This document shows positions 24,603 to 48,759 of a stretch of 64,000 bases of DNA, in pieces; the stretch's first letter is position 1; each line of letters starts with the position of its first letter. The translations under genes were made by a program, and so were the position numbers. The notes under the pieces are model-generated. The model saw only the letters and a list, made by a program, of their open reading frames with translations, was not told the origin of the DNA and made no database searches. The DNA comes from Sphaerolaimus hirsutus. Taxonomy: Eukaryota; Nematoda; Chromadorea; Monhysterida; Sphaerolaimidae. The DNA lies in contig OZ038456.1 in the NCBI GenBank assembly GCA_964036195.1, positions 23,227,792 to 23,291,791 on the forward strand, in the 5' to 3' direction.

Positions 24603-25273
24603 TAGGGTTCAAACGATATATCGTATTGAATATCGAATATCGGATATCGACCATTTTTTAATATCGAATATCGATATCGAAAATTTTGAAAAAAATATCG
24701 AATATCGATATCGAAAATTTTGAAAAAATATCGAATATCGATATCGAATATCGACCATTTTTTCGATATATCGAACCTATATTGTGTCCCAAAAAAAACG
24801 TTATCATTTTCATTTTGAGATATTTATGATTGATCTGATGTGCTTGATCTGATCTGAGAATTGTATTAGATGAGTAAAATTACAGTACTTATAATGTCAT
24901 TTTTGTTGGAGTGCTAAATTTGAAGCCAGAAAATGCTGATATTCTATTTTTTGCAACATGCAATTAACAATCAGGTTATCAGTATAAACTGTAATATCTA
25001 CCAATTGTTATTTGTCTGATACACTTTGATTCATCAAATTTTTTTTTCTACATGTTCTACTTTTGAGTGATGTAAACCTTGTTAAAATCATTTGTACCAT
25101 TAACATTTAACTAAAGAGATGATTAACCATGCGTGCAACCACATGAAAATACAATATATCGAATATCGAGTTTCAGAAAAAAATATCAAATATCGAATAT
25201 CAATATCGAGTTTGAGAAAAAATATATCGAATATTGAATATCAATATCGAAAAGTCATATCGTTTGAACCCTA
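24603..25273. mobile_element. hAT-like MITE with ATATCGA satellite arms (V1)
   Basis: Ends TAGGGTTCAAACGATA and TATCGTTTGAACCCTA are bounded by a perfect 8-bp duplication ACTCGCAC (24595-24602, 25274-25281). The arms are arrays of ATATCGAATATCGATATCGA; the centre is AT-rich with no gene. The outer TAGGGTTCAAACG is identical to that of the GGGATC-filled elements at 27112, 36661 and 38161. A partial relative of the arms is at 30590-30710. Confidence 0.95.
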
Positions 25274-25495
25274 ACTCGCACTGATTTATGTCTTACGTTG
25301 GAAGCGTGCCAATGATAATTGAACGATGCTTTTTTGTGAACGATGAATGAACGATTGAACGATATGAAAAAGTCATTGTTCTGAATACGGTAAGATATAA
25401 CGTTTTTACGGCAATGATTTTTTTCAACGTTTTATGTCATTTTTATATAATATCATTGGCGCGCTTCCAACCTGGACCACGCGTGCAAGTGTAAA

Positions 25496-25843
25496 GTGCA
25501 ACACCTGGGACTTTCTTGGGTTTCTGAAGTCGGATTGAATAGATTGCTCTTGCAGGGGGCGCCCTGGCTGCAGCTCACAACCCTGAAGATTCATGGGGTT
25601 ATTCTTAGTGAGGATACAATCAATGCGATTGTGCGCAGCTTGCCAGGCTTGCAAGAACTTACTCTGTGTTGTTTGGCTCGTCTGAGTGACGCGTCGCTGC
25701 GCACCTTGGTGGTGGGGCTGCCGCAGCTGCGCAGCCTGGATCTGTGGTGCAGGGAAGTGGCAGCAGATTTGCAGTGTTCTGCGCTGGAATCTGTGCCCGC
25801 GGACAACTGGACGCAGCTGCGGCACATTCGTTTGGGCTGCACC
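25496..25843 (+). pseudogene. F-box/LRR family copy A, exon 4 truncated at its 5' end
   Basis: The frame starting QHLGLSWVSEVGLN encodes leucine-rich repeats of the cysteine-containing FBXL type, for example LARLSDASLRTLVVGLPQLR followed by SLDL. It aligns with copy B from 50383 onward but lacks the first 250 bp of that exon; the sequence left of it is unrelated. The likely donor is ACC/GTGGGT in phase 0. The leucine repeats would be the substrate-binding part of the adaptor. Loss of the 5' half and of exon 3 makes a functional product unlikely unless a shorter transcript starts nearby. Confidence 0.75.
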
Positions 25844-26019
25844 GTGGGTTTTTTTACTTTTAAAAGTAGAAGTCTTTTCATGTGAAGCAATTATCACTGA
25901 ACACATTTGCTTGTATTTAAAAAAGTTTTTTTTTCAATATTAAAAAATAATAAATATTCAACATGGTATTCTGATATTCTTTAACAATCCATATTCCCAA
26001 TTTATCAACGTTCATGCAG

Positions 26020-26103
26020 GGCGATCGGCAGGAGATCGTGGCAAGTGCTCTGGATGCACTCCGCTCGAGGGCCGCTGGACAGATTACATGCATTAGTACC
26101 TGA
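26020..26103 (+). CDS. F-box/LRR family copy A, terminal exon 5
   Basis: After the acceptor TTCATGCAG, 27 codons (GDRQEIVASALDALRSRAAG then QITCIST) end in TGA. Copy B has the same boundaries, phase and stop at 50952-51035. Conservation of the last coding exon and of the following AATAAA in both copies supports the gene model. It is listed as coding because this exon itself is intact, although the upstream exon is truncated. Confidence 0.6.
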   Translation, partial: GDRQEIVASALDALRSRAAGQITCIST

Positions 26104-26205
26104 TGTAAGCTAAAGATGTGTTCTGCATGCTTTTATATTTAGGCAGGTTGTGATGTGATGTGGTGCAAAAAAATGTTGGAGCCTAGTTTCAAATAATTTT
26201 GTATT

Positions 26206-26211
26206 AATAAA
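26206..26211 (+). terminator. Polyadenylation signal AATAAA
   Basis: It lies about 100 bp after the copy A stop codon and is matched by the AATAAA at 51137-51142 at the same distance in copy B. Confidence 0.5.
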
Positions 26212-26593
26212 AATGCTGAAATTGTAAGATCACAATTTAGATTTTTTTAATGTAAATTTGCACCCGTTTGATTTGTTTCATACTGTCACACATACCGTTG
26301 GTGCATCGGTAAACTTGGCGGACATGATGGCATACAATGTTCTGGAAGAATTCGCAACGACCATAGTGTGAACTGAATGGGCACTTTGCCAACTATTTCG
26401 CAATATGGGGGAAACGAAATTAATGAAATCATCCCGATAGACTTATAACTTACAATAACAATTTATATATCTTGCGTTTATAATGTTTGACGATATCATG
26501 TTTTGTCAAAACGTTAAATCGTCCGCCAAGTTTACTGCAGCACATTTGTGGTCATTATGACTGCATGAAAATTTTTTGTCAAACCCCCCGGAC
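26212..26593. other. Non-coding 3' flank of copy A
   Basis: Similarity to the 51140-51255 flank fades after about 26300. No other gene is visible. Confidence 0.5.
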
Positions 26594-27081
26594 TAGGGTG
26601 TCAACCTTCTGTTTTCCGTTTCCGCTTTCCGCAGGCAAATTTGTTTTTTGTTTCCATTTTCCGGCTGCTAAATTTGTTTCCATTTCCGTTTTTCCGGATC
26701 ATTTTCTGTTTTCCAGCTAAATTTTCAATTTTTCTGCCTGTTTTCCGTTTTCTGGTCCAATTGTCTGTTTTTCAATTTTCTGTTTTCTGTTTCAGCCAAA
26801 CTGGTAAACGTGCATTCAGGTTCTCTACTATGTGAATTTTTTCTATTTATAGCAAGATTTCTTCAAATTTTTTATCTTTTATCTTCAACATTCTGCAAAA
26901 GTTCCCGGCAAAATTTCAGCAAATTTTTTTGTTTCTGGCTTAATTTTAGCAAATTTTTCCGTTTCCAGGCCTTTCATTTCCGTTTTCCATTTTCCAGCAA
27001 GTGCAAAAATTTTCCATTTCCGGCAAGTGCAAAAAATTTTCCATTTCCGTTTTTGGCCAAAACGTTTTTGTTGACGCCCTA
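26594..27081. mobile_element. hAT-like MITE with TTTCCGTTTTCC interior (AF1)
   Basis: Ends TAGGGTGTCAACC and GTTGACGCCCTA are flanked by CCCCGGAC and CCCCAGAC, an 8-bp duplication with one mismatch. Almost the entire interior is a strand-biased pyrimidine array of TTTCCGTTTTCC-like units. Confidence 0.85.
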
Positions 27082-27111
27082 CCCCAGACTTTAGGATAAA
27101 CAGCCTGCAAG

Positions 27112-27702
27112 TAGGGTTCAAACGGGATTGACTTTTCGGGATCGGGATCGGGATCGGGATTCACTTTTTGAGATTTCGGGATCGGGATCGGGATCGGGAT
27201 TGGGGTTTCGGGATCGGGATCGGGATTGGTTTTTTGAGATTTCGGGATCGGGATCGGGATCGGGATTGGCCGGGATTGGGGTCACGGGATCGGGATTGGG
27301 ATAGGTATTTTTCCGGGATCGGGATTGGGTTCTAGGGATAGAGATTTTGGCCATTTTTCTGGCATTCACAGTTGTTCATAAAGGTCTCAAAACACTGTTG
27401 GATGCCAGAAAAGTGGCATAAAATTGACGCTGGGGGTTTGCATCCACTTTTTTGCATGCAAAAACGTCATTATTTCACTTTTTATAATTTCCACTAATTT
27501 TTCCGGGATCGGGATTCCGGACTTGGGAGTTTCTCGGGATCGGGATCGGGATTTGAAAACTTTCGGGATCGGGATCGGGATCGGGATTGGTATTTTTGAG
27601 ATTTCGGGATCGGGATCGGGATTGGGGTTTCGGGATCGGGACTGGTAAATCCCGGAATTTCACGGGATCCGGGATCGGGATCGGGATCCCGTTTGAACCC
27701 TA
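27112..27702. mobile_element. hAT-like MITE with GGGATC satellite (T2)
   Basis: Ends TAGGGTTCAAACGGGATTGA and the complement CCCGTTTGAACCCTA are bounded by a perfect 8-bp duplication CCTGCAAG (27104-27111, 27703-27710). The interior is mostly (GGGATC)n with a short non-repetitive centre near 27350-27490 that is also found in the siblings at 36661-37081 and 38161-38589. Confidence 0.96.
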
Positions 27703-27894
27703 CCTGCAAGGCCGCTACACATGCGTTGCTCTCATAGAATTGGAAATAAAACAAAGTTATATTTCTCCATGTGAACTTTTTGAATTATCAACTATTTATT
27801 TTGAAATGTGGAGGCCTCATAATCATGAACATCAAATGTTGGTAGGCGTTTGCAAAGGACATGTTGCATTCATTTATATGCTTTCACTGATGAG

Positions 27895-28163
27895 CAGGGG
27901 TGGGAAAGGGGGGTGTTACCACCAAATTACCCAGCTTATATCTATCCTGGAGGCAAATTTTTGGGCTGTTGTTCCTTGAACACCCCTCAATTTGTGCTCA
28001 AAATCACCAGCCTAATACAACCCTTTAATTATATTGAACCATCTCAACCCCCCCCCCCAAAGAAATCTTATCAGCTATCTATCCAACCTATTCATCAACA
28101 GCTATCTATCAGCGATTTGCTATCCATCCAACCCCCAGAGGGTCAAAATCTAGAATACCCCTG
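27895..28163. mobile_element. hAT-like MITE, CAGGGG family (A2)
   Basis: Starts CAGGGGTGGG and ends TACCCCTG, with flanking 8-mers CTGATGAG and TTGATGAG (one mismatch). Interior CAGCTATCTATC motifs and C runs match A1 at 125-638. Confidence 0.8.
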
Positions 28164-28379
28164 TTGATGAGTACAAAACTGTATTTCCCACTCTTTCCAG
28201 AAAAAATCCACAAGATGGCAGATGGGATGGATTGAACTTTCAAATGATTGGGCGATGGTTTGCGGGGATTTCAACGCCAGTTTGTGAACGCCAGTTTACC
28301 ATAGAAAGTAGTCATACTCTTTGGTCATAATGCCTCATTTTGTTTCGTTTTAATTCAGTCATTTTGACATTGGGAACTC

Positions 28380-29047
28380 TCCCACATCCTGTAAAAGACC
28401 CTGCAAAGTGTCAAAGACCCTGCAAAGTGTAATGTGTCATGTAAAAATATAAAAATCACAAAAAAATAAAATAATGATACGGGACTTGGCAGCCGGCCAA
28501 ACTTAACAAATTGAAAAAAATAAAAGGATGATATCAGAGAGAAAATGATTCAGTAGGAGTTGGATCGTATTGCATAGATCAAGAACGAACACTTTTACGG
28601 GTATGAATTCCCTCGAAAAGCGTTGTGAAAATGATTTGGCATTTTTTGTGTGAAAAATGCCAAAAAAGCCGAACCAGCCGCGGGGATCCGATCACATGAC
28701 CATCCGAATGCCTGGCAAAAAGATACACACCGTGAATACAACGCGTCAATACAATGCAGTAGTCAGTTCATTTTTTCCATCAGATATCATTCAGATTGAT
28801 GCGGTATTTAGACTTGACCGGTGTCCAATTTTCTAGTTGTGTAAGTAGTCGTTTCAGCTTCATAATTGGTATTTTCATCTTAATAAATGACTACCCCTAT
28901 TATTAGTATATTTTGGCTATTTTCAAACATTATAGAACGATTTCAAAATTTTGGCTGGCTGCCAAGTCCCGTATCGTTATTTTTTAATGCGATTTTTATC
29001 TTTTTGCGTGACACATGACATTTTACATGGTCTGGGAGTGGCACCTG
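28380..29047. mobile_element. B-family foldback (B3) with a second inverted element inside
   Basis: Outer ends GGGAACTCTCCCACATCCTG and GGTCTGGGAGTGGCACCTG. At 28476-28975 lies an inner unit with ends GATACGGGACTTGGCAGCC and GGCTGCCAAGTCCCGTATC, related to the unit at 34866-35345. No coding region was recognised. Confidence 0.7.
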
Positions 29048-29216
29048 CTTCAAGTTGAGTTCTCTCATCATGCATCAAAATCTGTAGTCTTGTAATTCGC
29101 CATTTCAAGCTCCAGCATATTGGGATTTGTTACGTTTGATCAGGTTGATTTTTTTTGGTTTTGTTGGACCTATCGTTTTGAATGATTCAGTTGGCATCGT
29201 TTGTTCGTGCAGTCGT

Positions 29217-29660
29217 TAGGGTTGGCCGATGTTTTTTTGAAGGTTTTTTGTAAAACAACGTTTTTTTATTTAAAAAAACATGACGTCCGACGGCCGAGAT
29301 TTTTAGGTGTTTTGACTAGGTATTTTGCAAAATTTACCCCATGTTTCACTCAAAATCACCAATTTTCATAACTTTTGGACCGCTTTAAGAAATTTTCGGA
29401 TACATAAATATGTGCGTGTAGACACATTTCCGACCATTTTCCCCTATTTTTAGCATATTCTCTCCCGTTTTCCCTTATATTCCTTCAAAAAGTCGATAAA
29501 AATACTTACCAGAAATACGTTTTCTGTACTCGAATACTTTCAAAAAGTATACGTAAATGCGAGTACAGGAACTTTTTTTGGAGGAAACGTAAACGTATTT
29601 ACTCTGTACTCGAGTAAACGTATTTATCGAGTAAAAGTAAATACGTTTTAACAACTATGA
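29217..29660. repeat. Fragments of TAGGGTTGG and CAGAGTTGT family MITEs
   Basis: 29217-29335 is a left end of the TAGGGTTGG family (GTTGGCCGATGTTTTTTTG, ACTAGGTATTTTGCAAAA). 29480-29655 carries the right-end pattern ACGTAAACGTATTTACTCTG ... TTTTAACAACTATG of the CAGAGTTGT family. Neither is complete. Confidence 0.6.
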
Positions 29661-30154
29661 CTCCGCGGACAGCGCACTTCACATGCCACATAAATATTTA
29701 CAATACGCATGTTGTCTGAAGCAAAAACACGCCCGAGTAGCACTAATCAATAAATACCCACTCACACAAAAAATATAATTAAATTTATAATAGAAAAACG
29801 CATTTTCGCGCATTTAACTTTTTTCAATTGTTTGAACACTATAATTTTATTCTTAAAGATGGCGTCATAATAATTTTTTCAAAAAGAAAATCGCTTAACA
29901 TGCGCGGTCCGCCGAGTAAAAATGCGCTTGATTGAATTTTGTGCCCACATTGTTTGCAGGGGTCAATCTTGTAAAATGTCATGTGAAATGTAACTAGAAA
30001 TGTGTCAAATGTGTTACTCACTGGAACTGGCCCCAGGAAGCGTATGGCGAGTTGCGCTTGTCAAATCAAAATTGTACCGATGAGAAAATTCTCCAAAATA
30101 CATTCACTTGTTTTGTTTTCGAGCTTGATGTTTCTGCCTTGAATACTACATTTG

Positions 30155-30846
30155 GCTCCGCACCTGTACGCACAAACGCCCGGCGCGCACAAACGCCTGG
30201 CACGCACAAAATGAAAGTCCGGTACGCACAAACGCCCGGTATGCACAAAACTGTAGCTGTGTGCGTGCCGCGGCTTATAAGTTTGAAAGGTTGTCATTAA
30301 TAATAAAAAACAGCCGAAAAATTTTAGTCACGCTGCCATGCAAAGGTTTGATGAAATTGCTTCCTCATGCTGCAGTTTGCTGTGTTAGTAGCCTACATTT
30401 TGTTAGGATGTGTATACATTACCAGTGAAATGATATCCTACTTTTGATAGCTCAATGTGAAAATGGTATGGTATTTATATGATATATTACTTTGTGCATT
30501 CAAAAGCATACACATGTTTTGCTGCAGCGTCCAATTTTTGTTGGCTTCAACCATTTTTGGGGGATCACAAATATGTCAAAATGACTGTCAGAATATCGAA
30601 AAAATGGTCGATATTCGATATTTTTTTAAAATTTTGATATCGATATTCAATATGAAAAAATGGTCGATATCCGATGTTCAATATTCGATACGATATATCG
30701 TCCCAACCCTACCGGTACGCACAAATGCCCGGTATGCACAGAGCATCAGATTTGTGCGTACCGGGCATTTGTGCGTGGCGGGCTCAATTTTGTGCGTGCC
30801 GGGCGTTTGTGCGCGCCGGGCGTTTGTGCGTAGGAGGCCTGGCCCC
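30155..30846. mobile_element. hAT-like MITE with GTACGCACAAACGCCCGG repeats (AE1)
   Basis: Flanked by a perfect 8-bp duplication TACATTTG (30147-30154, 30847-30854). Both ends carry arrays of GTACGCACAAACGCCCGG facing each other. The paralogous stretch at 58085 lacks the element, so its insertion postdates the duplication. A remnant with ATATCGA repeats is nested near 30590-30710. Confidence 0.88.
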
Positions 30847-31067
30847 TACATTTGTTGAACCGATGTTGTAGTTATGAAATAAATACGTGCATTTGAATTT
30901 TCTGCAGATTGAAATGTTCGCCTGGTGCTCGGTTGTGGAAAATACAGCTATTCAGGATATTGTGTTAGTGTATGTCTTGTAGCATGTGCCCCAACCAGAT
31001 GTGTGTGCCGGTGCACATGTAAACCCGCTGCGCATGCAGACCGCCACTCACCCAAGCAGCTGCTGCG

Positions 31068-31111
31068 ATGGACCCGGCCGTGCCCGACGCAGGGCAAAGT
31101 GCCCGCTGCAG
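31068..31111 (+). pseudogene. F-box/LRR family copy D, exon 1 relic
   Basis: The exon opens MDPAVPDAGQS like the others, but one base is missing towards its end, so the GTGAGT donor now follows 44 nt instead of 45 and the phase no longer suits a phase-0 exon 2. No F-box exon follows before 40 kb. The upstream region matches copy C, so this is a stranded duplicate of the gene's 5' end. Confidence 0.65.
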
Positions 31112-31199
31112 GTGAGTCCCCCTGCAAATGCGTTTGCCCTTCTCGATGCCGTTTTGCGGTGATCTGTTGTGCATAGTTAATTGGTCTTCTGCTTGTGTC

Positions 31200-32010
31200 T
31201 GCCATATTTGAATTTTTTGAATTAATTATGGTAAATAGTTCTTTTTAAGTGAGCGGTCAGTAGACTTTCTTCCATATAATCGCTCATTTTGGTTTATATT
31301 GATACAAATTGATTTTTCCAATGCATCCAAAGCAGGTGAAAATAGAATTTTGACGATTTGAAACCGTTGATTTACTAGTTTGCAACTTTGGCAGCTTATC
31401 AGTCATTTCAGCTTCTGATTTAGGCGCCACATACACTGGATTGGATGTCAACTGTTTTGGTGTCAACTCTATTTTAGTTAAATTTAGGTTGCAGGACAAT
31501 TTTCAAGTGAATGTGCGTGGTGCAGCAAAGGCGAAGCGGAATTTATATTGTCATGTGCATTTGAACATGGTTTTGCAGCCCCTAAACTATAAAATTTATG
31601 AAAAACCATCTGCCCAGTTGACATCCGAATGTCAACTGTCCAACAGTTTTTCATCAATTTTCGGTTTATGGGCTGCTAAAGGATGTTCAAATGAAGGGTG
31701 TGCTTCTAGAAGTACTGACTGATCTAAAAAAATTTCAAATTTGAGTTAGGACCATTTTTCGGGTCCCCATAAAAAATGTGCTTCTAAAATATATATAATA
31801 TGTGGTGGGTGCGAAATTCAATTTTTAGATATATGTGGGGTCAAAAAATGCCAAAAAATCACAAAATACAGTTTTTAAAATTTTCAAAGTACCAATCTAC
31901 AAGCGTTTTCAGCTTTTGTGTCTTTAAAAGTACCAATCTACACACTTTTTTCAAAATTGTTCTTTCAATTTACCGATCTGCAAGTAAACGAACACTGAGA
32001 AATCGTTTGC
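31200..32010. repeat. GATGTCAACTG inverted-repeat family, partial
   Basis: 31440-31560 (GGATGTCAACTGTTTTGGTG, GGTTGCAGGACAATTTTCAA) matches 53340-53400, where a complete palindromic copy exists. The remainder to 32010 has no recognised feature. Confidence 0.5.
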
Positions 32011-33439: not shown

Positions 33440-34173
33440 CTGGTGCCGGTTCCGCAAGTGGACAAGTTAAGAGTTAAAAGTTAAGAGTTGAGTAAAATGA
33501 CAAATGGCGAGTGAAAAGTAAAGTTAAAGTTTAAGAGAAAAGTTAAAGTTTAAGAGTTGAGTTAAAAGTTGAGTTAAATGTTAAGAGTTGAGTTAAAGGT
33601 TAAAAGTTGAGTTGAGAGTTAAGAGTTGAGTTATGAGTTGAGTTAAGAGTTGGAACAAGTGGAAGTGGAAGAGACAAGTGGAAAATGATGGTAAAAAAAT
33701 ATAAAAAAATAAAAATGTGAAATTGGTATTGATACGGCTGTTTGCTGGCATGCTGCCAATGTTGTATGCACAACATTTGAAAATACCGTATCCAAAAAAA
33801 TTATCGCTAAAAAAAGAAAAAATCACGGAACGTTGTTTCAAAATGGCCGTGCGGGGACAAAATATGACTGAAGATCAGCGTATCGCGCTTCTGCAATGAA
33901 TGACCCATTTCTCTTTTAAATCAACTTTTAACTCACCTTTTAACCTTTAACTCAACTCTTAACATTTAACTCAACTTTTGACTCAACTTTTAACCTTTAA
34001 CTCAACTCTTAACATTTAACTCAACTTTTAACTCAACTCTTGAACTTTAACTTTTCTCTTGAACTTTAACTTTTCTCTTAAACTTTAACTTTTACTCTTA
34101 ACTTGCCATTTGTCATTCTACTCAACTCTTAACTTTTAACTCTCAACTTGTCTACTTGCGGAACTGGCCCCAG
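33440..34173. mobile_element. Foldback of GTTAAGAGTTGA repeats (C3)
   Basis: Same termini and centre as C1 and C2, with an uninterrupted TA at 33789-33790. It appears to sit within a CAGGGG-family remnant, whose motifs (GCATGAACTAGTGATT; TATACAAATGTATG) continue on both sides. Confidence 0.85.
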
Positions 34174-34656: not shown

Positions 34657-35812
34657 CAGGGGGCAGTTCCAAGCCCTGTAAAGTGTAAAGTAAAGTGTCA
34701 AATGTAAAGTAAAGTGTCAAGTCAAATGTCAAATGTAAAGTCAAGTGACAGCCCCCGTTCGCCGGCCCCCGTAAACAAGCAGCCCCCCCCCCGCTCAAAA
34801 ATCCTGGATACGTCCCTGTTCGGTACAAGTATTCAGATCGACTGCTTAAGTAAAATGGAGATACAAGTTGGCAGTCGGCCAAAAATTTCGTAATCGCATA
34901 AATAAAAATAAAGAAGGCTAAAGATAGGTATACAACCGGTTCCGTGTACTATTTCACATCTCTTATCATGTATTTAAACAAAAATAGCGGTTATGAAGGA
35001 GAAAATTTGCAAAATAGAGTAAATTTTAGCGATTTTGAGCGGAAATTTTGGAAAACTCGCTCAAAGTACAATTTTCAACCAGTAACTTGGACATGGGCCA
35101 ACTTGTCATACATAACCCGATGCTAATTAAAACAAATCTGACCGGATCATGTATGCAAAGTTGGCCCATGTCCAAGTTGCCAGTTACGTACTGTATACGA
35201 ACGAGAGTGAAAGCTGTCGAAATGAGAGTTTTTGCTAAAAATCACCAAAATAAGCTCCATTTTGACCATCTTAATCATCTAGGTACATAAATGTTTAAAA
35301 TCTTCTTATCTATAGAGATTACGAAATTTTTGGCTCTCTGCCAACTTCACATAAGTGGTAACTATCTCTGAAAAATTGTCGTATTTCCAAATCGTTGGTT
35401 CGTTGCCAAATGAGCAAGGATCAACGCGCGACGTCGTTAAAAATATATGTAAAGGGGGATTCAATCGTACATCCTAAATTGATTCTTGCTCATTTGGGAA
35501 TGAAGTGACATAAAAATACTTTTGTATTTTATATTGGACGTTGCGGTTTCACGATACGTCCGACACAGATATCGTCACTTTCCTTTTAATATTTTTCTTT
35601 TTTTGTGAATATTTTTTGTTTGTCATTACATTTGACACTTTACTTGACACTTTACTTAACATTTGACATTTGACTTGACACTTGACTTTACATTTGACAT
35701 TTGACTTGACACTTGACTTTACATTTGACTTGACACTTTACTTTACATTTGACACTTTACTTTACATTTGACACTTTACTTAACAGTTTACAGGGCTTGG
35801 GATTGGCACCTG
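34657..35812. mobile_element. B-family foldback with TTGACATTT arms (B4)
   Basis: Ends CAGGGGGCAGTTCCAAGCCC and TTGGGATTGGCACCTG. The left arm repeats AAGTGTCAAATGTAAAGTA, mirrored at 35625-35790. Inside are an E-like fragment (34755-34820, ending CTGGATACGTCCCTG) and a unit at 34866-35345 with GTTGGCAG...GGCCAAAAATTTCG ends, itself containing a palindrome around CAACTTGGACATGGGCC (35075-35190). Weak TTTGG similarity flanks it; no clean duplication. Confidence 0.7.
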
Positions 35813-35814
35813 CT

Positions 35815-36660: not shown

Positions 36661-37081
36661 TAGGGTTCAAACGGGATCCTGATCCCGGATCCCGTGAAAT
36701 TCCGGGATTTAGCAATCCCGATCCCGAAACTTTTCAAATCCCGACCCCGAGAAACTCCAAAGTCTGGGATCCCGATCCCGGAAAAATAAGTGGAATTATC
36801 AAAAGTGAAAAAACGACGTTTTTGCATGCAAAAATGTGAACGCAAAACCCCAGCGTTCATTTTATGCCACGTTTCTGGCATACAACAGTGTTTTTAGACC
36901 TTTATGAACATCTGTGGATGCCAAAACATTGGCCAAAATCTCTATCCCAAGACCCCAATCCCGATCCCGAAAAAATGCCAATCCCGATCCCGTGACCCCA
37001 ATCCCGGCCAATCCCGATCCCGATCCCGAAATCTCAAAAAAGCGATCCCGATCCCGAAAAGTCAATCCCGTTTGAACCCTA
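36661..37081. mobile_element. hAT-like MITE with GGGATC satellite (T1)
   Basis: Ends TAGGGTTCAAACGGGATCC and CCCGTTTGAACCCTA; flanks CCCCAAAT and CCCCCAAT (one mismatch). Confidence 0.85.
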
Positions 37082-37162
37082 CCCCCAATTGAGTGTAAAG
37101 AGAGCGTCAATGACAAAATGCTTATGTTTTTAGTACGGTACTACCGTGTTTCCTCTAAATAC

Positions 37163-37905
37163 CAGAGTTGTTAAAATACCGGTATTTTTGGAAAGTGTAA
37201 GTGTAAGTGTAAATACGCTTTCCAAATTTTGAGTATGGATACCAAAAGTGTAAGGTATTTTAAAAATACCTAGGAAAGTGTAAAAAAAGTGTAAGTGTAA
37301 ATTTTGTTTAGAGAGCTCTCACTGTTAGGCATTAGAAAACACCGCTGTTCTCATCTTTAGATCAATTTATTTATCATTTTCATGCATTATTTCACATTTT
37401 ACGGCCTTTTATGAACCATTTCAGACTGTAACAAATACTGTAGTGGTATGAAGTTCCCTAATAATGGCACTTTTTCAGTGTTGATATTCTACTGATTAAG
37501 CAATGCGATACACACTGTTTAAATGCAAGAATGGACATGCAGCAAATGTCAATGCAAAAGTTGACTTTGTGTTCAGCTTGTGAATTTCCATTGATCTTGT
37601 CCTTTTACAAAAGTATGATGAAACTGTAGAATACCATGAGTACTGATTGTAGATCAAAGGCTAGTTTGTACATTTGCCATATTTTTTACATTCAATGCAT
37701 TTTTTGTACATGACCCTATTTTATGCTTTCTCAAAAGCATAAAACAGAGCCATCTGAAAGAAAAAAATACACTTTCTGTACCCGGGTATTTTGCCCAGGA
37801 AAGTGTAAAAAAGTGTATGGGTATTTTATGAAAGTGTAAGTGTAAATATAAATACCCATTTACCCGGGTATTTTGGGTGAGTGTAAGTACACTTTCGCAA
37901 CTCTG
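37163..37905. mobile_element. hAT-like MITE, CAGAGTTGTTAAAA family (P1)
   Basis: Ends CAGAGTTGTTAAAATACC and CGCAACTCTG with a perfect 8-bp duplication CTAAATAC (37155-37162, 37906-37913). The arms are arrays of AAAGTGTAAGTGTAAATAC and ACCCGGGTATTT; the centre is unique and AT-rich. Confidence 0.95.
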
Positions 37906-38160
37906 CTAAATACCCCCCCCCCTCAAAATAAGCACTATGCATTTCTAACCCCCTCCCTCGAAATACCCCCCCCCCAATTGAGTGTAAAGAGAGCGTCAAT
38001 GACAAAAGCTGCGGTTTATGACCTGGGCAATGCATAAAAAGCTGTAGACTCTTATACATGGTGGTTTTGTTGCATTTTTTTACGTCTGCGTACGTTATTA
38101 GTACTGGGAGTTCAAAAAATGTTTGGCGAAATAATAACTACCTCCCCCTCGAAATATCCC

Positions 38161-38589
38161 TAGGGTTCAAACAGGATTGACTTTTCCGGATCGGGATTGG
38201 TTTTTTGAGATATCGGGATTGGCCGGGATTGGGGTCACGGGATCGGGATTGGCATTTTTTCGGGATCGGGATTGGGGTCTTGGGATAGAGATTTTGGCCA
38301 ATGTTCTGACATTCACAGTTGTTTATAAAGGTCTCAAAACACTGTTGGATGCCAGAAAAGTGGCATAAAATGGACGCTGGGGGTTTGCGTTCACATTGTT
38401 GCATACAAAAATGTTTTTTTTTTCGCGTTTTGTAATTTCCACTTATTTTTCCGGCATCGGGATCCCGGACTTAAAAGTTTCTCGGGATCGGGATCGGGAT
38501 TTGAAAATTTTCGGGATCGGGATCGGGACTGCTAAATCCCGGAATTTCACGGGATCCGGGATCGGGATCGGGATCCCGTTTGAACCCTA
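38161..38589. mobile_element. hAT-like MITE with GGGATC satellite (T3)
   Basis: Ends TAGGGTTCAAACAGGATTGA and CCCGTTTGAACCCTA; flanks AATATCCC and AATACCCC (one mismatch). Inner centre as in the 27112 sibling. Confidence 0.87.
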
Positions 38590-39034: not shown

Positions 39035-39044
39035 ATACAAAAAC

Positions 39045-40842: not shown

Positions 40843-41580
40843 CCGTATTTCCTCGAAATACCCCCCGGGGGGGGTGATTGTTCCATAGTGGTCCCGAGAC
40901 GGGGGGGGTTAAACGAGGGGGAGGCAAAATTTTGGACTACTACCCCCTAAACCCCCCCCCCCCCCAAATCGCACAGCTATCTACCTATCTGGAGCGATTT
41001 TTCAGAAACTTTACCCCAATTTTCGCTCAAAATCGCTATTTTTCATACCTATATATATATTTTCACCTCCAAAATCACTAGTTCATGCGTCTAACTGCCT
41101 ATTTTCAGCTATTTGAAGTACTATATGCTCTTGTATACTTATTTTGAGCTATTTTACACCTACTTTTAGCGATTTTGTCTCCCTTTTCCTCCTTCTATGC
41201 CCCGAAAAAGCCTATATATCGAACCACCACAACCCCCCCCCCCCCCCCAAACCGCCCCCCCAGAAAATTTTTCAGCTATCTATTCCTCCGGAGGAGCGAT
41301 TTGCTATCTTTCCAACCACTAGGAAGGTCAAAATTCAAGATACCCCTGGTGCTAGGTTAGAACAGGGTCTATACAAATCTATAGACTCTTATGCATGGTG
41401 CAATTGTTGCATTTTCCTATTTCTGCATATGTTACAAACAAGAAATTAGTACTGGGAGTTGAAAAAAATTCTGGCAAAAAATAAGGCCCCTCGAAATACC
41501 CGCCACGTTTTACCCCCGTCAAATCCTCTCTCTGTAACAATCACCCCCCTCCCCCCTGGAGGCATTTCGAGGAAATACTG
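40843..41580. mobile_element. Mariner-like MITE (R7) containing a CAGGGG-family MITE
   Basis: CCGTATTTCCTCGAAATACC after TA and GGCATTTCGAGGAAATACTG before TA. A CAGGGG-family element occupies roughly 40925-41353, ending ATACCCCTGGTGCTAGG. Confidence 0.85.
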
Positions 41581-41850
41581 TATTTACATGTGTATGTTTC
41601 AAATGTACGCGTACAGCCCAGTCCGGTACTTTTTTTAAAGCACATGTAAACGTATTTACAAAGTAATCAAGTAAATGTATTCTTCGAGTAAGTGTAAATA
41701 CATTTTAACGACTGTGCATGCGAAGAGCCCGGTTAGTGAGCACACTTCACCGCCTTTGGTTGCAGATATGGAACGTAATTCCAAAATTATGGAATTTTTT
41801 CACCAATCTTTTTTGTCAGCACATGAAAGCGTGTAAACGACGCTGTTTAG
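41581..41850. repeat. CAGAGTTGT-family right-end fragment
   Basis: AAACGTATTTACAAAGTA and ATACATTTTAACGACTGTG (to about 41720) match the right arm of that hAT-like family; the rest is intron leading to the exon 2 acceptor. Confidence 0.6.
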
Positions 41851-42111
41851 GCGTTTGTGTTTCCACGGGATACAGTGTTGTCGCACTCGCAGCTGGTGGA
41901 GTCGCCCACTTGTGTGCCGCACGTGCTGGAGGCGATTCTGCTGTCCGCGTGCCCCGCCCCCCAACAGCTGTGCGCGCTGGTGGCGCCCCTGTGCTCGCGG
42001 CTGCGCACCTTCGTGTACTCCGAGCCGAGGCTGTGGCGCCAACTGAAAATGGACGGTTATCGGAGGACGTACCATATTGATGCATTGGGCCACTTGTTCC
42101 AGCGGCCACAG
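41851..42111 (+). CDS. F-box/LRR family copy B, exon 2 (F-box)
   Basis: 87 codons from AFVFPRDTVLSHSQLVE through VLEAILLSACPAPQQLCALV, APLCSRLRTFVYSEPRLWRQ to LFQRPQ, ending at CAG/GTTTGA. The segment VLEAILLSACPAPQQLCALV with the downstream LW fits the F-box, which docks Skp1 and so couples a substrate to the cullin ubiquitin ligase. Phase is 0 at both ends, matching exon 1 and exon 3. The acceptor follows a CGCTGTTTAG tract. The sequence is much richer in GC than the introns. Copies A and C preserve the exon with conservative changes, and copy A has an indel at its start. Confidence 0.75.
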
Positions 42112-42179
42112 GTTTGAGGGGGGACATTTTGCGAGTGTCTCACTTTGAAACCTGGTTATATTGGCAGATGAGTCCTGGC

Positions 42180-42326
42180 CAGTGATGTAAAAGCGCCATG
42201 GCGCTGGCGCCAAAGCAAAAAGCGCCATGGCGCTTGGCGCTTTTTTTCCTGTGGCGCCATTGGCGCTAGGGGTCGAAAAGCACCATGGCGCTTGGCGCCA
42301 AAGTTCTGGCGCTTTTCACATCACTA
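42180..42326. mobile_element. hAT-like MITE (AB2)
   Basis: Same insertion as at 4743-4871: duplication GTCCTGGC at 42172-42179 and 42327-42334, with more GGCGC units inside. Confidence 0.9.
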
Positions 42327-42728
42327 GTCCTGGCGGTACAATATCACGCCCCTGCTCTGGGGTTTTATTTCATGACAAATTTCGCACTGTCAATCGTGGT
42401 CCGGAAACCCAGCTGTACATCCATACAACCCGGATCAAAGAATGTGTAAACTGTTGATGTGAAAACTAGGGATGGCCAAGGTTGTTTTCAAATGTTTTTT
42501 AAAAATAAAAACGTTTTATTTTATAAAAAACGACCATCGAAACCGTTTTTAAATACTTTTTAGTACTAAGCACTAGGTATTTTGCAATTTTTTGCACGCA
42601 AGCGCGCAATTTCACCTGCACTGTACTATTTGTGGTGGTTTTCATTGGTTTTTGAGCATTTTTAGTGTAAAAGGTTCCATTTGTTTGTGCTATTATGTCA
42701 TAATAAGCCACGATGCACTAGTGTAGTA

Positions 42729-43988
42729 AACTGGTGGCACATATAAATGAGAAATCAGGTACCTCATTTTTCACAACAATCTCACAGGGAAACGTGCAGC
42801 CCAATATGGCTGCCATTTGTTGTGGGGGTGCCCACAACATTTGTCTACATAAATGCCAAGTGGCACCCCATGGCACCCTCCTGTTCTGCTGTTACAGATT
42901 GATGAAGGATTTTTGCCATTTTTTTCCCGGAAAATATAAATGAGAATTTTCAAAAAACCACACAAAATATAGCTGTGGTAAAGTGTGCAGCCATTTTTTG
43001 GTGTGCTGACAACATAAGTAATGAATTCACTTGTGTTGGTGCTTTTTCAAAAAATAAAAGTTCCTTGTGGCTTGCCAAAAGCCATATTTTGACCCGCTGG
43101 TCATTTGTGGGTATATTTTGACCCCCATTCCACTACCCCCACATAAAAATGGCCCCCAATATGCAGACATGTGCTATGGAGCCAGCTCAACCATTATTTT
43201 GAACTTTGTGATAATCCAAATTGTGATTGTTATTGAAAAACCATGATTTTCAACTTTCTGGACATGACCTAGTTTTTTGTCTGGCCCATTCAAACTAGAT
43301 ACATGGCACATTGCCCATTGGCCCCCATAGATTTTTTACAGATAATTAGTGCCCACATAAAATGGGCACAATTATTTTGTGATTTGTCTGGCGACATTGG
43401 AGGCGTCGGACACGCTGTCACCCAAGTGCCGTCTTTACACAGGGCCATTTTTATCATTTGCTATAAAAAAATATTTGAGTGCAAAAACGGGGCCCAGGAG
43501 CAGTCATATGTTGCCCCTGACACCGAACAAGCCGATTCTGGCCCCCATGTGCTCTATGAATAGCTTGGGATAGTGGATTATCCAGATTGTAAAACCTATG
43601 TTTTTGTCCAAAAAAATTTTTCAGTTTGATCAACAATGCTGTCATTGTGTGGGGATTCTGGGGGTTCTGAGGGGGTGGAAAAGTTGTACATACTGTGAAT
43701 CTACCAATGTTAAAAAAACTTTTTGGGCTCAAATGTCCAGAATAAAAATTATAAAAATTTAAATTTCATCAGGAACAAAAATTTGTATGGAATTCTCATT
43801 TATATTTTCCAGAAAAAATGTAAAAAAAAATTTTTTCTGCACCAAGGGTGGCCTGAGGGGGGTGCCACCTAGGGTATATATAGTGAATACTTGGGGGCAC
43901 CCTCACACATAATGAAAGCCTAACAGCTTGCATGTGGGATTTGTAAAATACAATAAAGTGATTTTCTCATTTATATTTTCCAACAGTT
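42729..43988. mobile_element. Tc1/mariner-like element, AACTGGTGG ends (J1)
   Basis: Ends AACTGGTGGCACATATAAAT and ATTTATATTTTCCAACAGTT are bordered by TA (42727-42728, 43989-43990). The copy A paralogue has the single TA at 5254-5255. Interior copies of the end motif (42930-42950, 43790-43815) suggest an internal inverted unit. At 1260 bp it could once have held a transposase, but no frame resembles one. Confidence 0.92.
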
Positions 43989-44287
43989 TACCTAATATAC
44001 AGCCATTGTGCCCCACATATGTGTACAGTGTGAAACACCACTGCCAATGTGTGAGCCTGCTCCTATATCCTTATTAAGACACTTTTCCACACCCAACATC
44101 ACTTGTCACAAGTCACAAATGTTCGACAAAAGGTGATATCCATAATAAGTTGACATAAAACATATATTTTTGACAGAAATCACCACTTATAATGATATCC
44201 CATGGCTCTAAAGCCATTCTATGGCTATATATAACATCACAAAGTAATGTCACCTGTCTGATTCACCTGTATCTGTTGACTCATGAC

Positions 44288-44972
44288 TAGGGTTGGCCGA
44301 TGTTTTTTTTTAAACGTTTTTTATTAAAAAAAAACGTTTTTTTTTAAAAAAAAACATGACGTCCGAAATGTTTTTTTTTTAAAAAAAACATCGACCGAAA
44401 TTTTTAGTACTAAGCACTAGGTATTTTGCAAAATTTTTGCGTGCAAGCGCGCAATTTCACACACAAATTGACATTTGTGGTTGTTTTCATTGGTTTTGTG
44501 GCATTTTTAGTATCAAAGTATCCATTTCTATCTGCTACCATGGGTTAATAAGCCGTAATATGTTGCTGTGGTATATAATATTGAGGTAATGTGCTTCCAT
44601 GTACCTCCACAGTGTGTAACTTCACTCCCAAAGTAACAACCTCCTTTTATAACCTTGTTTGATCACTATTCCATGCCAAACTTTACCTGAAGTCAGGAAC
44701 ATTCGACTATAAGGCGATATACGTACGATATGTCGACAAAAAATGGATATTTTTGACACAAATCACCACTTATAATGCTATCCCATGGCTCCACAGACAT
44801 TATATGGTCATATATAACATCACAGAGTATTGCCACTGTCTGATATACCTATATATGTTGACACAAGGTCATATCTGGGAGCTTTTAAAAAAAAACGTTT
44901 TTTATTAAAAAAAAAACGTTTTTTTTTAAAAAAAACATCGAGTTAAAAAAAAACGTTTTTTTTCCAACCCTA
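44288..44972. mobile_element. hAT-like MITE, TAGGGTTGG family (I3)
   Basis: TAGGGTTGG and CCAACCCTA within a perfect 8-bp duplication CTCATGAC (44280-44287, 44973-44980). It inserted into its own relative, which has the same core. Arms of ACGTTTTTTTTTAAAA; core with GCGTGCAAGCGCGC. Confidence 0.95.
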
Positions 44973-45171
44973 CTCATGACCATATCTGGGAGCTTTTAAA
45001 AAAACCGGTTTTTGAAAAAAACGTTGTTTAAAAAAAAACCTGTCGTTGGAAAAAAAACTTTTTTCAGCCATCCCTAGTGAAAACGCGTCCTTGCAATATA
45101 TGCCCGAAATGTTTCACTCACAATCTGTGCAAATGATTGAATATTCACAATTTTTCGATTGTCATTCGCAG

Positions 45172-45534
45172 GTATGCAAAGGATTGCGGCATTTGAAGTT
45201 GGGAAATGTTTCGATGGGAACAAGTCACATGCCGAGGGTCTTTTTCGCCCACCCACTTCCCAACCTGACCGAGCTGCAGCTGGAACGTTGCCAAATTGGC
45301 TGGGACATGTGGCTGTCGCTGGCCGGGGCAACTCCGCACTTGCAGCAGATCACATTGTATTTGCTCAGATTTGATCGCTATGAAAGGTCGTCTGAAGAAG
45401 TCCCAGAGAGCGGTCGCTTTTGGCCTGCATTGACAACTGCAAAAATGAGATGCCATGTGGATTTGATGTTGTTTGTGCTGCGGCAGAGTTGCGCGCTGGA
45501 GATTTGTGAAATTTTCGCAGATATTTCCCAGTTG
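45172..45534 (+). CDS. F-box/LRR family copy B, exon 3 (leucine-rich repeats)
   Basis: After CATTCGCAG the exon reads VCKGLRHLKLGNVSMG in phase 0 and continues for 121 codons. Leucine-rich repeat strands are visible: LRHLKLGNV, LPNLTELQLERCQI and TPHLQQITLYLLRF, then VDLMLFVLRQSCALEICEIF. It likely ends at CAGTTG/GTTCTT in phase 0, since the frame reaches a stop at 45562. These repeats would form the start of the substrate-binding solenoid behind the F-box. Copy C (61589-61948) is the same exon one codon shorter and with several changes at the start. Confidence 0.7.
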
Positions 45535-45582
45535 GTTCTTTTCTTGGGGTGTTTTTGCCTATAGCGCAGGTGGTAGTTATTA

Positions 45583-45970
45583 GGGTTGGAAAAAAGGTTT
45601 TTGTCCAACAGCATGTTTTTAAAAAACAACAACGTTTTTTTAAAAATTTTAAACGTATTTTTCAAAGCTCCCAGGTAAGGCCTTGTGTCAACATACATAC
45701 ATAGTTATATTAGACAAGTGGCAATACAGCTCTGATGGTATATATGACCATATAATGGCTGTGGAGCCATGGGATATCATTATAAGTGGTGATTTGTGTC
45801 AAAAATGTCCATTTTTTGTTGACATGTTCATATATCGCGTTATAGTCGAATGTTCATGAGTTCAATTGAAGTTTGGCACGGAATAGTGATCAAACGATTA
45901 TACGGTGATCAAACGGTTATAAAAAGAGGTTGTTACTTCGGGAGTTCTGTTTCACACTGTGGAGGTAAAC
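45583..45970. mobile_element. TAGGGTTGG-family element, right end missing
   Basis: Starts TAGGGTTGGAAAAAAGG and follows the family core as far as CACACTGTGGAGGTAAAC; no CCAACCCTA end follows. The same truncated unit is in copy C from 61992, so the truncation predates the duplication. Confidence 0.75.
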
Positions 45971-46039
45971 TTGTGTTCAGGCTCCTTTGTACGTTTGGAA
46001 ACATATTTTATGGATTTATGTATGAATGAAATTTCCCAG

Positions 46040-46187
46040 TTCTGTTGTGGATTGTAGTGCAATTCAAGCCATACAATTTGAGCGGATCACCTGGGCGCAA
46101 TTCCTACCCTGGGCCGGCCCAGAGTATTTTTTGTCCTTTGGGGCCTGCTCACCAGTCTTCATTTAGTGCCACCAGCCATCTTATAAG
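46040..46187 (+). pseudogene. F-box/LRR family copy B, candidate exon 3b with an in-frame stop
   Basis: Bounded by ATTTCCCAG and AAG/GTATTG, the frame reads VDCSAIQAIQFERITWAQFL, an LRR-like strand (IQAIQFERI). In copy C it stays open for 49 codons, but here codon ATT is followed by TAG (46164-46166) where copy C has GAG. The acceptor needs two bases from the previous exon, whereas exon 3 seems to end in phase 0, so the exon model is uncertain. If exon 3b is genuine, copy B is a pseudogene or uses a transcript that skips it. Confidence 0.45.
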
Positions 46188-46568
46188 GTATTGGCGGATA
46201 GCCAAAATCGTGTACTCTTGAATACAGCGAATTTCGGGCCGTTTTTGGAGCTTTTGGACCCGTTTTTTGTCGTTTTTCACTTCAATGGTTTTTGTTCACA
46301 AGTCAACGGTTGGTGTGCTTTAGATGGATGGTGTGCAGTGGCGTGTGTTTTCTCTGACTCGTGTTTTCCTTCTGCCATGTGTTTTCTCCGACTGTGAGGG
46401 GGGTATGTGGGCTACCAGAAATGCAAATAACTGGCCAACCCTAGTACTTTCTGTATGTCTATTTTCGGCTATTTTTTGTAGTATATGTACTTATATACCT
46501 ATTTTAGCTGTTTTTTTCCAACGCGATTTTACCTCCTTTTATACCTCTGAAAAGCCTATATACTGAAC
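46188..46568. other. Intron, duplicated in copy C
   Basis: Matches 62577-63246 except for the CACAG...CTGTG element at 62876-63151. The right part (46440-46560) has CAGGGG-family motifs. The ATA at 46483-46485 is the empty site for that element. Confidence 0.7.
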
Positions 46569-47087
46569 TAGGGTTGGCACTTGGCACAGGATTTTTTAAT
46601 TGATTTTTTTTATTTTTAAATCTGATTAAAAAAATATATCAAAGAGTGGAAACTGATTTTAATTTAAAAAATCAAAAGGCAAAGGTTCTGGTAGACTTGC
46701 ACCAGGTATTTTGCATTTTTTTGCATGCAAGCGCGCAATTCCTCATACATATTACCATCTGTGGTGTTTTCATGGGTTTTGGGGTATTTTTAGTGTATAA
46801 TCTTCCATTTATTCACTTTACCAAGTAATAATAAGCTGTGATATGCTAGTGTAGTATATAATATCAAACCAATGTGCTCCCACATACTTCTACAGTGTGT
46901 AACATCACTGTCAATGTATTAGCCTTCTCTTACAACCTTATTTAAGCACTATTCCATGCTGAACTTCACTTGAAGTCACAAACATTTGACAAAAGGCGAT
47001 ATAAAAATATTTTGGGCGATTTTAGAGAATCTGATTTTAATTTTTTTTAAATCAAGGCGTTTAAAAAAATTGTTTTTTCCAACCCTA
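46569..47087. mobile_element. hAT-like MITE, TAGGGTTGGCAC subfamily (I5)
   Basis: Ends TAGGGTTGGCAC and CCAACCCTA; flanks TACTGAAC and TATTGAAC (one mismatch). The arms use AAAATCTGATTTTAA instead of ACGTTTTTT, while the core (ACCAGGTATTTTGCATT, GCATGCAAGCGCGCAATTCC) is the family's. The same insertion is in copy C at 63247-63904. Confidence 0.9.
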
Positions 47088-47107
47088 TATTGAACCCTCA
47101 CGAACCC

Positions 47108-48121
47108 TAGGGTTCAAACGGGACCAGTTTTTCGGACTGGGACCAGGAATAGAAATTTTCTAATGTCGGGACCGGGACCGGGACTGGGGGGTAGGGTGGC
47201 AGACGGTACGGCCTTGCGGTAAACCGTACGGTACGGTAAATTTTCTCTTTTGCGGTAAACGGTACAGTACGGTAAATTTTCAATTTTGTGGTAAACGGTA
47301 CGGTACGGTAAATCTGAAAAGTGCGGTTCGCGGTACGGTACGGTACGGTAAATTTTCGCTTGTCAGAAATGTACCAATGCCGGACTACAGACAACTTTTA
47401 CTTCATGAATTGACAGAAAATTGAATTATGCAATGTGTTAATGGACTTTAGAACACAATAACAGTGTGATAACATAGAATTACATTAACCACAATGCAGT
47501 GGCTCAATATAAAGGTTTTTTTAAGGTTTAGAAGGAAGAAACGGAGAAAAATTGCTAAAAGTGGGTGAAAAATTGCTAAGTGGGTGAAAATGGTAAAAAG
47601 TATATAAGTGCATGCATATGTACCTACAACAAATAAGCTCAAAACATTGAGGATGATGTAAAACAACTACAGTGCAATTTGAAGCACATGGCTTGATTTT
47701 AAAAACACATTAAACTAATGTAAATGAAGAGTTACATCAATATTGCATGTGGAAATGGAAGGGTTTCAAATCAGTCCAAACAATGTTGTCAAATTTGCGC
47801 GCTTGCGCGCAAAAAAATTGCAGAACACCACATCTTTAAGTCAATTTTAAGGTTAATTTTTAAGGTCAATCTGAGTCAAATTTACCGCATTTTCTGCGGT
47901 AAATGAGTGCGGTACGCGGTACAGTACGGTAAAATTTAAAAAATGCGGTACGCGGTACGGTACGGTAAATTTCTAAGTGCGGTAAACGGTACGGTACGGT
48001 ACGGTAAATTTTCCAAAAATGCGGTACGGTACGGTAAATTCTGCCACCCTACTGGGGGGTCGGGACCGGGACTGGGATTTGCCGAACCAGGTACCAGCAC
48101 CGCGGTATTGTTTGAACCTTA
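47108..48121. mobile_element. TAGGGTTCAAACG element with GGGACC repeats (T4), host of U1
   Basis: Begins TAGGGTTCAAACGGGACC and ends TTTGAACCTTA. The outer parts carry GGGACCGGGACTGGG units instead of GGGATC. The element at 47192-48051 is nested. No clear duplication. Confidence 0.7.
47192..48051. mobile_element. hAT-like MITE with GGTACGGTAAA satellite (U1)
   Basis: Ends TAGGGTGGCAG and CTGCCACCCTA within a perfect 8-bp duplication CTGGGGGG (47184-47191, 48052-48059). Both arms are GCGGTACGGTACGGTAAAT arrays in opposite orientation. The centre has a GCGCGCTTGCGCGC palindrome at 47797. Confidence 0.95.
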
Positions 48122-48557
48122 TTGGTATGTAATATCCAGCCAATGTTGTTCCACACACCTCCACTGTGTGAAGGACCAGTCTCAATGTATTTTCTTATAA
48201 CATTATTCAAGCAGTATTCCATTGCCATCTTCACTTGAACTTGTGAATATATGATGAAACGCAATGTATGGAGGATTTTTTTTGGGAGGGGGGGGGGGGG
48301 CGGCGCCAGTTGTAGGCGCTGGCGCTGGCGTTGGCGACAACGTCATTAATATAGGTATCTATATATATACCTATATTTCGTAATAGAATCATGTTGGGGA
48401 CTGTTCTAACGCTGTCACATTATGGAAAAACACATAGTAATCATTGGCTGGGTATTTGCGCGCTTGCGAGCAAAATTTTTTTAGATTTTACTACGTAATC
48501 GCTTTATAAAAGTGCCATTTCTGGCAAATTATTTTTGAAAGATACGTTTTTTCCATC
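48122..48557. repeat. Mixed MITE remnants with GGCGCTGGCG and GCGCGCTTGCGAGC
   Basis: Contains a G run, GGCGCTGGCGCTGGCGTTGG and the shared GC palindrome near 48452, as in the CAGTGGCGTAGCC and CAAGGACG families, but lacks defined ends. Confidence 0.55.
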
Positions 48558-48759
48558 CCTTGTCGGGACCGCTATAAAATTCTGGGACCGGGACCGGGAC
48601 TGGGTGGTCGGGACCGGGACCGGGACCGGGACTGGCTTTTTTTAATTGTCGGGACCGGGACCGGGACTGGGGTGTCGGGACGGGGACCGGGACCGGGACC
48701 GCCCCAGTCCCGACTTTTTGCCGAAACATGTACCGGGACCGCGGTCGCGTTTGAACCCT
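48558..48759. mobile_element. GGGACC satellite with TTTGAACCCTA end (T5)
   Basis: GGGACCGGGACCGGG array ending GCGTTTGAACCCTA. The left terminus is lost. Confidence 0.65.

Follow-up and report, generated by a model that had tools for sequence, protein, structure and literature searches.

Subterminal word arrays of hAT-like elements in Sphaerolaimus hirsutus and the switching of words on common scaffolds

A stretch of 64,000 nucleotides from the nematode Sphaerolaimus hirsutus (assembly GCA_964036195.1, contig OZ038456.1, positions 23,227,792 to 23,291,791; here called the window) contains hAT-like elements whose arms carry arrays of a short motif, the word, which differs from family to family. 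The locus raises the question whether such arrays are satellites born at transposon ends or sites that are read by a transposase. Both possibilities had been named in an earlier sequence-only reading of the window, and they were followed up here in the window and in the genome (348 Mb searched). Very probably the elements are non-autonomous or decayed hAT transposons, whose dense subterminal arrays consist of a family-specific word that is putatively bound by the DNA-binding domain of their own transposase. What is new is that sister families form a series in which the framework is the same and the word is not. In the parts of the literature available to us no description of word switching on a common scaffold in hAT elements was found, which does not prove that there is none.

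An 8-bp target-site duplication (TSD) flanks 15 of the 16 hAT-like candidates of the window, nine perfectly and six with one mismatch; for the sixteenth, a TAGGGTTGG end at 45581, the TSD test found no 8-bp duplication. When the window was scanned for exact 9-bp inverted ends that directly adjoin exact 8-bp direct repeats, with low-complexity sequence excluded, 12 pairs were obtained, and in 20 dinucleotide shuffles the same scan gave no pair in 19 and one pair in the other. Exact pairs such as 3251-3410, 36937-38293 and 51447-54768 are not among the delimited elements. Inverted ends with word arrays, as listed in the sequence-only reading, stand together with an 8-bp TSD at 18418, 23755, 24603, 26594, 27112, 36661, 37163, 38161, 44288, 47108, 47192, 58659 and 59352, whereas those at 12280 (GTTAAGAGTTGA) and 30155 (GTACGCACAAACGCC) are inverted arms with no 8-bp duplication. 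Two elements, 2072-2552 (TAACGATGG tips) and 42467-45076 (TAGGGATGG tips), are additional to that list. The motif GTAAACG given for 37163 had to be corrected to GTGTAA, and the word does not make up the whole of the arms, in which clusters of it are interspersed with spacers and some copies are isolated. The terminal inverted repeats are short tips of 8-13 bp. Two findings support the proposed hAT affiliation: the families with TAGGG, CAGAG and CAACGATGG/TAACGATGG tips have 8-bp TSDs, and elements of the TTTCCG, ATATCGA, ACGTAA and TTCGAA word families contain hAT exons.

Words were compared between the CAGAGTTG-tipped families, which have an end scaffold of about 140-160 bp on each side in common and comprise three word families. 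For end A, 5 ACGTAA, 6 GCGTAA and 6 GTGTAA sequences were used, for end B 2, 2 and 5, respectively; the far ends of L116-L121 lie outside the fetched stretches and only their end A was used. From GCGTAA to GTGTAA all 12 sites are switched (7/7 in end A and 5/5 in end B) at a scaffold identity of 104/117 and 101/110, together 205/227. From ACGTAA to GCGTAA, 11 of 13 sites are switched, one is retained and one is different from both (scaffold 94/117 and 88/104), and from GTGTAA to ACGTAA 10 of 11 are switched with the remaining one gapped and none retained. For GGGATC and GGGACC, with three elements each, 30 of 41 sites are switched, one is retained and 10 have a gap or another sequence, at scaffold identities of 65/92 and 58/91. 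Lone words between spacers switch as clustered words do, at both ends. One scaffold site of the CAGAGTTG series has 4,056 exact copies in the genome and none for the control. The first 100 matches listed split into 38 GC, 36 AC, 25 GT and 1 AT, and therefore each of the three words is probably present on this scaffold in about a thousand copies or more. By eye, the ATATCGA family has the tip, the position of the first word and a TTTTCG linker in common with the GGGATC/GGGACC families. A general CG grammar, under which words hold a CG as most do (CGATAT, CGGGAT, CGGGAC, CGGTAC, CGGAAA, CGTAAA, CGTTTT), was rejected, as it fails for GTGTAA.

The link between tips and words was followed through the genome. 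The exact 13-base tip TAGGGTTCAAACG occurs 15,514 times, versus 8 times for the reversed control, and is followed by ATAT in 3,241, by GGAT in 8,581 and by GGAC in 2,549 cases, in total 14,371. A sample of convergent TAGGGTTCAAACG tip pairs no more than 1.4 kb apart was taken from contig C1; it consists of 20 of the first 21 pairs and omits one 1,357-bp pair and tips without partner. All 20 pairs contain a word (ATATCGA 4, GGGATC 10, GGGACC 6). Tandem Repeats Finder reported an array in 19 of them, the exception being L104, which with 100 bp is too short and has the word 6 times. In this sample 15 TSDs are perfect, one pair each scores 7/8 and 6/8, and three (L106, L110, L112) reach 4/8 at most. 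For the TAGGGTTCAAACG tip, same-end copies are thus mostly found with the word and not without arrays. In the DNA searches the best 40 copies were scored, and the length and identity ranges favour query-like copies; the GGTACGG copies (857-876 in length) have a TSD in all 15 fetched loci, 13 of them perfect, and the ACGTTTTTT copies a perfect one in 10/10. Conversely, double words of five tested words were located relative to the tips. Within the window 60 of 62 lie between cognate tips, one near one tip and one near none; in loci of at least 3 kb, which were partly chosen by family, the counts are 415 of 485, 65 and 5. Arrays of these five words are therefore not mostly outside terminal repeats. 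Long element-independent arrays, by which a satellite would be recognized, were not seen for them, and the suggested birth of satellites is not borne out.

Within the elements the words are strongly oriented. The GGGATC element at 27112 has 17 words on the left and 14 on the right, all in a single direction, and the ATATCGA, GGGACC, GGTACGG, TTTCCG and GTGTAA elements of the window show one direction, apart from one or two words at most. The arms are direct and not inverted in the ATATCGA, GGGATC, GGGACC, GGTACGG, TTTCCG and GTGTAA/ACGTAA families; in families where direction can be read, the inverted part is the tip and the first word only. For 43 TAGGGTTCAAACG elements whose TSD matches at 7/8 or better, collected from the window and the fetched loci, word direction was taken as the majority within each element, and the words with and against it number 259:0 for ATATCGA, 404:26 for GGGATC and 120:5 for GGGACC. 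Two ATATCGA copies in this set, L001 in the window and L002 on contig C4, share their TSD as reverse complement; they are not independent and probably represent one insertion copied together with its flank. In the ten TTTCCG elements that carry a transposase exon every counted word, 9-19 per arm, points the same way relative to the exon.

The two ends differ in their order. End A consists of the tip, CG NNNN, a short linker with TTTTCG and the array, and end B of the tip, a word palindrome (ACGATATATCGT, CGGGATCCCG, CGGGACCGCGGTCCCG) and the array in opposite sense. A palindrome of at least 10 bp is present in end B of 39 of the 43 elements and starts at base 11 or 12, except in L045 (base 15). 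End A has 17 palindromes of this size, all starting from base 24 within the ATATCGA array. In the three elements examined (L019, L012, L015) end B lies 5' of the transposase exon; the inverted words are two bases apart in L012, and one half is damaged in L015.

A direct link between the arrays and hAT transposases is provided by exons. A genome search for the hAT dimerisation domain PF05699 gave 28 matches, 20 of which lie inside elements with tips, an 8-bp TSD (17 perfect, three with one mismatch) and word arrays on both sides. By word these are TTTCCG (10), TTCGAA (7), ACGTAA (2) and ATATCGA (1); L024 and L025 have a common TSD and are not independent. The remaining eight loci (L011, L016, L017, L018, L020, L027, L031, L035) are not delimited. 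In a tree of the exons, to which the word-family labels had been assigned beforehand, the exons cluster by word family with one change per family, and the three changes observed are the minimum for four families. Support is 91/91, 100/99 and 92/87 for word families, and the CAGAGTTG (GTAAACG) group is weak with 52/41. A search with zf-BED gave eight exons in the genome, whose neighbours resemble host zinc-finger genes. Six of these (L037-L039, L041, L042, L044; C1 7.466-7.489 Mb) form a tight cluster beside C2H2 finger exons, and the others are L043 (C1 7.68 Mb) and L040 (C6). The BED zinc-finger exons are possibly hAT-derived host genes.

Array length variation between copies, which the sequence-only reading had proposed to measure, was scored as distinct indels of at least 5 bp relative to the consensus. 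The comparison covers 16 of 28 ATATCGA, 15 of 15 GGTACGG and 4 of 5 GGGATC loci; the loci left out had no pair passing the limits for tip, size and TSD. The 16 ATATCGA copies show 21 arm indels, 10 of them of 6-7 bp, and none in the core, the 15 GGTACGG copies six arm indels, all of 5 bp, and one in the core, and the four GGGATC copies 10 arm indels with sizes of 6, 12 and 29 and none in the core. Five of ten ACGTTTTTT copies have one additional 20-bp unit. As the arm indels are mostly unit-sized, slippage or unequal exchange changes the number of words. Slippage is real, but it accounts for unit number only. Some short elements are hardly more than one array: L028:2878-3016 (139 bp), L096 (190 bp) and L104 (100 bp) each amount to little besides a single array framed by two tips, and their TSDs are perfect; L099 has 257 bp. 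Such mini-elements are perhaps the product of recombination between direct arms, like solo long terminal repeats.

These data fit the suggestion that multimerised putative transposase sites are under selection. The words are near-pure in each element and switch together even when isolated, and in most of the families with a readable direction they point the same way in the two arms. Uniform words that are not adjacent, conserved spacers, directional arms and a palindrome at one tip are features which a multimeric DNA-binding transposase would select. We infer binding of the word by the cognate transposase, whose domain would have changed along with the word. Each word would be bound by this transposase as a multimer, while the catalytic core would read the tip, and the direct arms with the one-sided palindrome may set the left/right asymmetry, as described for Hermes. 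After a shift in the specificity of the binding domain, amplification would mainly affect elements that carry the new word throughout, and word families such as ACGTAA, GCGTAA and GTGTAA would arise by one-letter steps; word number would be adjusted by replication slippage or unequal exchange. We tentatively go one step further, with a confidence slightly below even: within one genome hAT lineages may repeatedly change the word read by their transposase by single letters, rewriting most or all of the approximately 10-50 copies per element while tips and spacers are kept. Each change would free the active lineage from miniature inverted-repeat transposable elements (MITEs) with the old word, or from a host or domesticated repressor, and the arrays would be a fossil record of specificity changes. 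Escape from MITEs is a proposal only.

Several observations weigh against this interpretation. The exon-carrying elements are 1.0-1.95 kb long and contain the C-terminal exon only. The hunt for autonomous hATs with the same ends thus yielded this exon in 20 elements, and a complete transposase was not found in the genome by PF05699 and zf-BED searches; nor did the zf-BED search place a DNA-binding domain inside any array element. Among the 20 delimited elements no exon belongs to the GGGATC, GGGACC, GGTACGG, ACGTTTTTT, GAGTTTCCGTG, GTGTAA or GCGTAA families. Four of the 17 end-A sequences of the CAGAGTTG series (L034, L117, L120, L121) contain a foreign word or two. The two GAGTTTCCGTG elements of the window have words in mixed direction, and direction is undecidable for ACGTTTTTT, whose AACGTT is palindromic, and for TTCGAA. 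Furthermore, words in tandem clusters could be homogenised by conversion or slippage, and the sites of a cluster are not independent.

In an unlikely alternative, slippage at the ends of transposons gave rise to the arrays as neutral satellites, and the uniformity of words results only from concerted evolution through slippage, unequal exchange or gene conversion. The mostly unit-sized arm indels of the GGGATC, GGTACGG, ATATCGA and ACGTTTTTT copies would be expected from such turnover. However, isolated words amid conserved spacers have also switched, at both ends, direction and palindrome are maintained, and the arrays of the five tested words are nearly confined to elements. That the word changes are ordinary decay, for example CpG deamination from GCGTAA to GTGTAA, is highly improbable. 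GCG to GTG is indeed a C-to-T change at CpG, and ATGTAA occupies one of the 100 listed places of the scaffold site. But the CpGs of the consensus ends were lost in 14 of 14 cases inside words and kept in 4 of 5 outside, and because all word CpGs changed and only one outside did so, CpG decay is rejected for this step. In addition, six GTGTAA copies are without any GCGTAA, ACGTAA to GCGTAA is not a CpG-deamination change, and CpG is not depleted in the arms, with an observed/expected ratio of 1.1-6.9 in 17 hand-set arm stretches versus 0.74 in the rest of the window.

The repetitive arms also recall foldback transposons like FB, Galileo or Tetris, and true foldbacks with long inverted repetitive arms, in which the words flip, occur in the same window at 12280, 20050, 33440, 34660, 3753 and 30155. 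The TSD test found no 8-bp duplication at ten foldback-like elements of the window, 12280 and 30155 included. As the hAT-like elements have direct arms where direction is readable, and only the tip and first word are inverted, this explanation is left with next to no probability. Very unlikely, finally, is that the words are bound by a host factor, a repressor or a promoter protein and not by the transposase. The genome does possess the BED/C2H2 zinc-finger exon cluster, and the available part of PMC8097297 describes hAT-derived host proteins with diverse motifs; yet the words lie next to the tips and occur at both ends, their layout is like that of Hermes and each family has its own, all of which is more simply understood if they are transposase sites.

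If the arrays are indeed sites of the elements' own transposases, they bear on how a transposase can come to recognise another site and still keep its own ends, and on how it escapes its parasites. Families on the same scaffold that differ in the word at nearly every site are a ready series for testing. Many of the short-period arrays of such a genome prove to be ends of transposons and not satellites, which is of importance for repeat annotation.

Table 1. Delimited elements and related features of the window (positions are those of the window).
Feature	Position	Strand	Tips, TSD and remarks
ATATCGA-word hAT-like element	24603..25273		tips TAGGGTTCAAACG; TSD ACTCGCAC 8/8; locus L001
Palindrome ACGATATATCGT of the 24603 element	bases 11-22 of its left end		
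GGGATC-word (CGGGAT) element	27112..27702	+	tips TAGGGTTCAAACG; TSD CCTGCAAG 8/8; same word direction in both arms
GGGATC-word element	36661..37081	-	TSD CCCCAAAT/CCCCCAAT 7/8
GGGATC-word element	38161..38589	+	TSD 7/8
GGGACC-word element	47108..48760	+	13-bp tips TAGGGTTCAAACG; TSD ACGAACCC/ACGAAGCC 7/8; nested insertion inside
GGTACGG-word element, nested in the GGGACC element	47192..48051	+	tips TAGGGTGGCAGA; TSD CTGGGGGG 8/8
TTTCCG-word element	26594..27081	+	tips TAGGGTGTCAAC; TSD 7/8; genomic relatives (tips and words) carry hAT exons
GTGTAA-word element, GTG/GCG/ACG word-switch series	37163..37905	+	tips CAGAGTTG; TSD CTAAATAC 8/8
GTAAACG/ACGTAA-word element, more diverged scaffold	58659..58883		tips CAGAGTTG; TSD 7/8
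ACGTTTTTT-word element	23755..24438		tips TAGGGTTGG; TSD GGCCTACA 8/8; direction undecidable (AACGTT palindromic)
ACGTTTTTT-word element, nested in 42467-45076	44288..44972		TSD CTCATGAC 8/8
TAGGGATGG-tipped hAT-like element, host of the 44288 element	42467..45076		TSD GTGAAAAC 8/8
GAGTTTCCGTG-word element	18418..19496		tips CAACGATGG; TSD 7/8; mixed word direction
GAGTTTCCGTG-word element	59352..60107		tips CAACGATGG; TSD CCCATTTG 8/8; mixed word direction
TAACGATGG-tipped element, TTCGAA-like arrays	2072..2552		TSD CAGAACAC 8/8; hAT exons present in genomic elements with tips of this kind
Foldback, inverted TTAAGAGTTGA arms	12280..13425		no 8-bp duplication found; outside the hAT set; ends approximate
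Foldback, 17-bp GTACGCACAAACGCC arms	30155..30840		no 8-bp duplication found; outside the hAT set; ends approximate

The window also contains arrays of other kinds. Four foldbacks (12280-13425, 20050-20810, 33440-34150 and 34660-35790) have similar, AGG-GCC-GTTCC-like tips and arms of inverted TTAAGAGTTGA or TTGACA/ACTTTAC words, and no 8-bp duplication was found for them. Arrays with a period of 17 bp and differing sequence, with units including CGGCCGTAATGAAAACC, GTACGCACAAACGCCCG and TACTTGGGCACTGGGCC, are present at 3750-3935, 17420-17851, 30155-30840, 51645-51700, 52607-52709 and 58578-58930; a fixed period with variable sequence might mark a putative binding-site array of another transposon superfamily. 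The longest array of the window, 1.5 kb of TTTGACTTGACA-like units at 6809-8354, is perhaps of a different kind and free of any element, although no search was aimed at its ends.

Among known systems the layout is closest to that of hAT ends, for which the available parts of PMC3143072 and PMC8097297 describe transposases reading different short motifs. According to the available part of PMC10368747, the Hermes ends have many short repeats (17 and 14 per end), with subterminal repeats bound by the BED domain, repeats 2 to 7 antisense in the left end and 1 to 5 sense in the right end, and a quasi-palindrome at bases 11-27 of the left end. The elements described here likewise have many repeats, antisense at one end and sense at the other, and a palindrome from base 11 or 12 in end B; this likeness takes 'sense' as running from the tip to the inside, which is our own reading of PMC10368747. 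Unlike the dispersed 4-bp repeats described there for Hermes, the words are 5-11 bp long, clustered, and fill much of the arms. Maize Ac/Ds, in the accessible text of PMC3260210, has subterminal AAACGG hexamers that are bound cooperatively, and so resembles our elements in that a single CG-containing hexamer is repeated in the ends of the hAT family and of many of its non-autonomous members. However, as far as that text goes, Ac/Ds has one word per family and no series of switched words on one scaffold. Herves, also a hAT element, has the motif CG/AATTCAT, and binding regions vary among hAT transposases (PMC3143072, available part); it has a short family-specific motif at both ends in common with our families, but, in what is given there, few copies and no arrays. 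Tandem repeats of variable number at the termini are also known from the Tetris foldback with its TIR-220 satellite (PMC4079207) and from Galileo (PMC3688188), whose terminal repeats, in the parts of these sources available, hold or may hold extra transposase sites. In contrast to the direct arms found here, both are described there with long inverted arms, and Tetris with 220-bp units and real satellite arrays.

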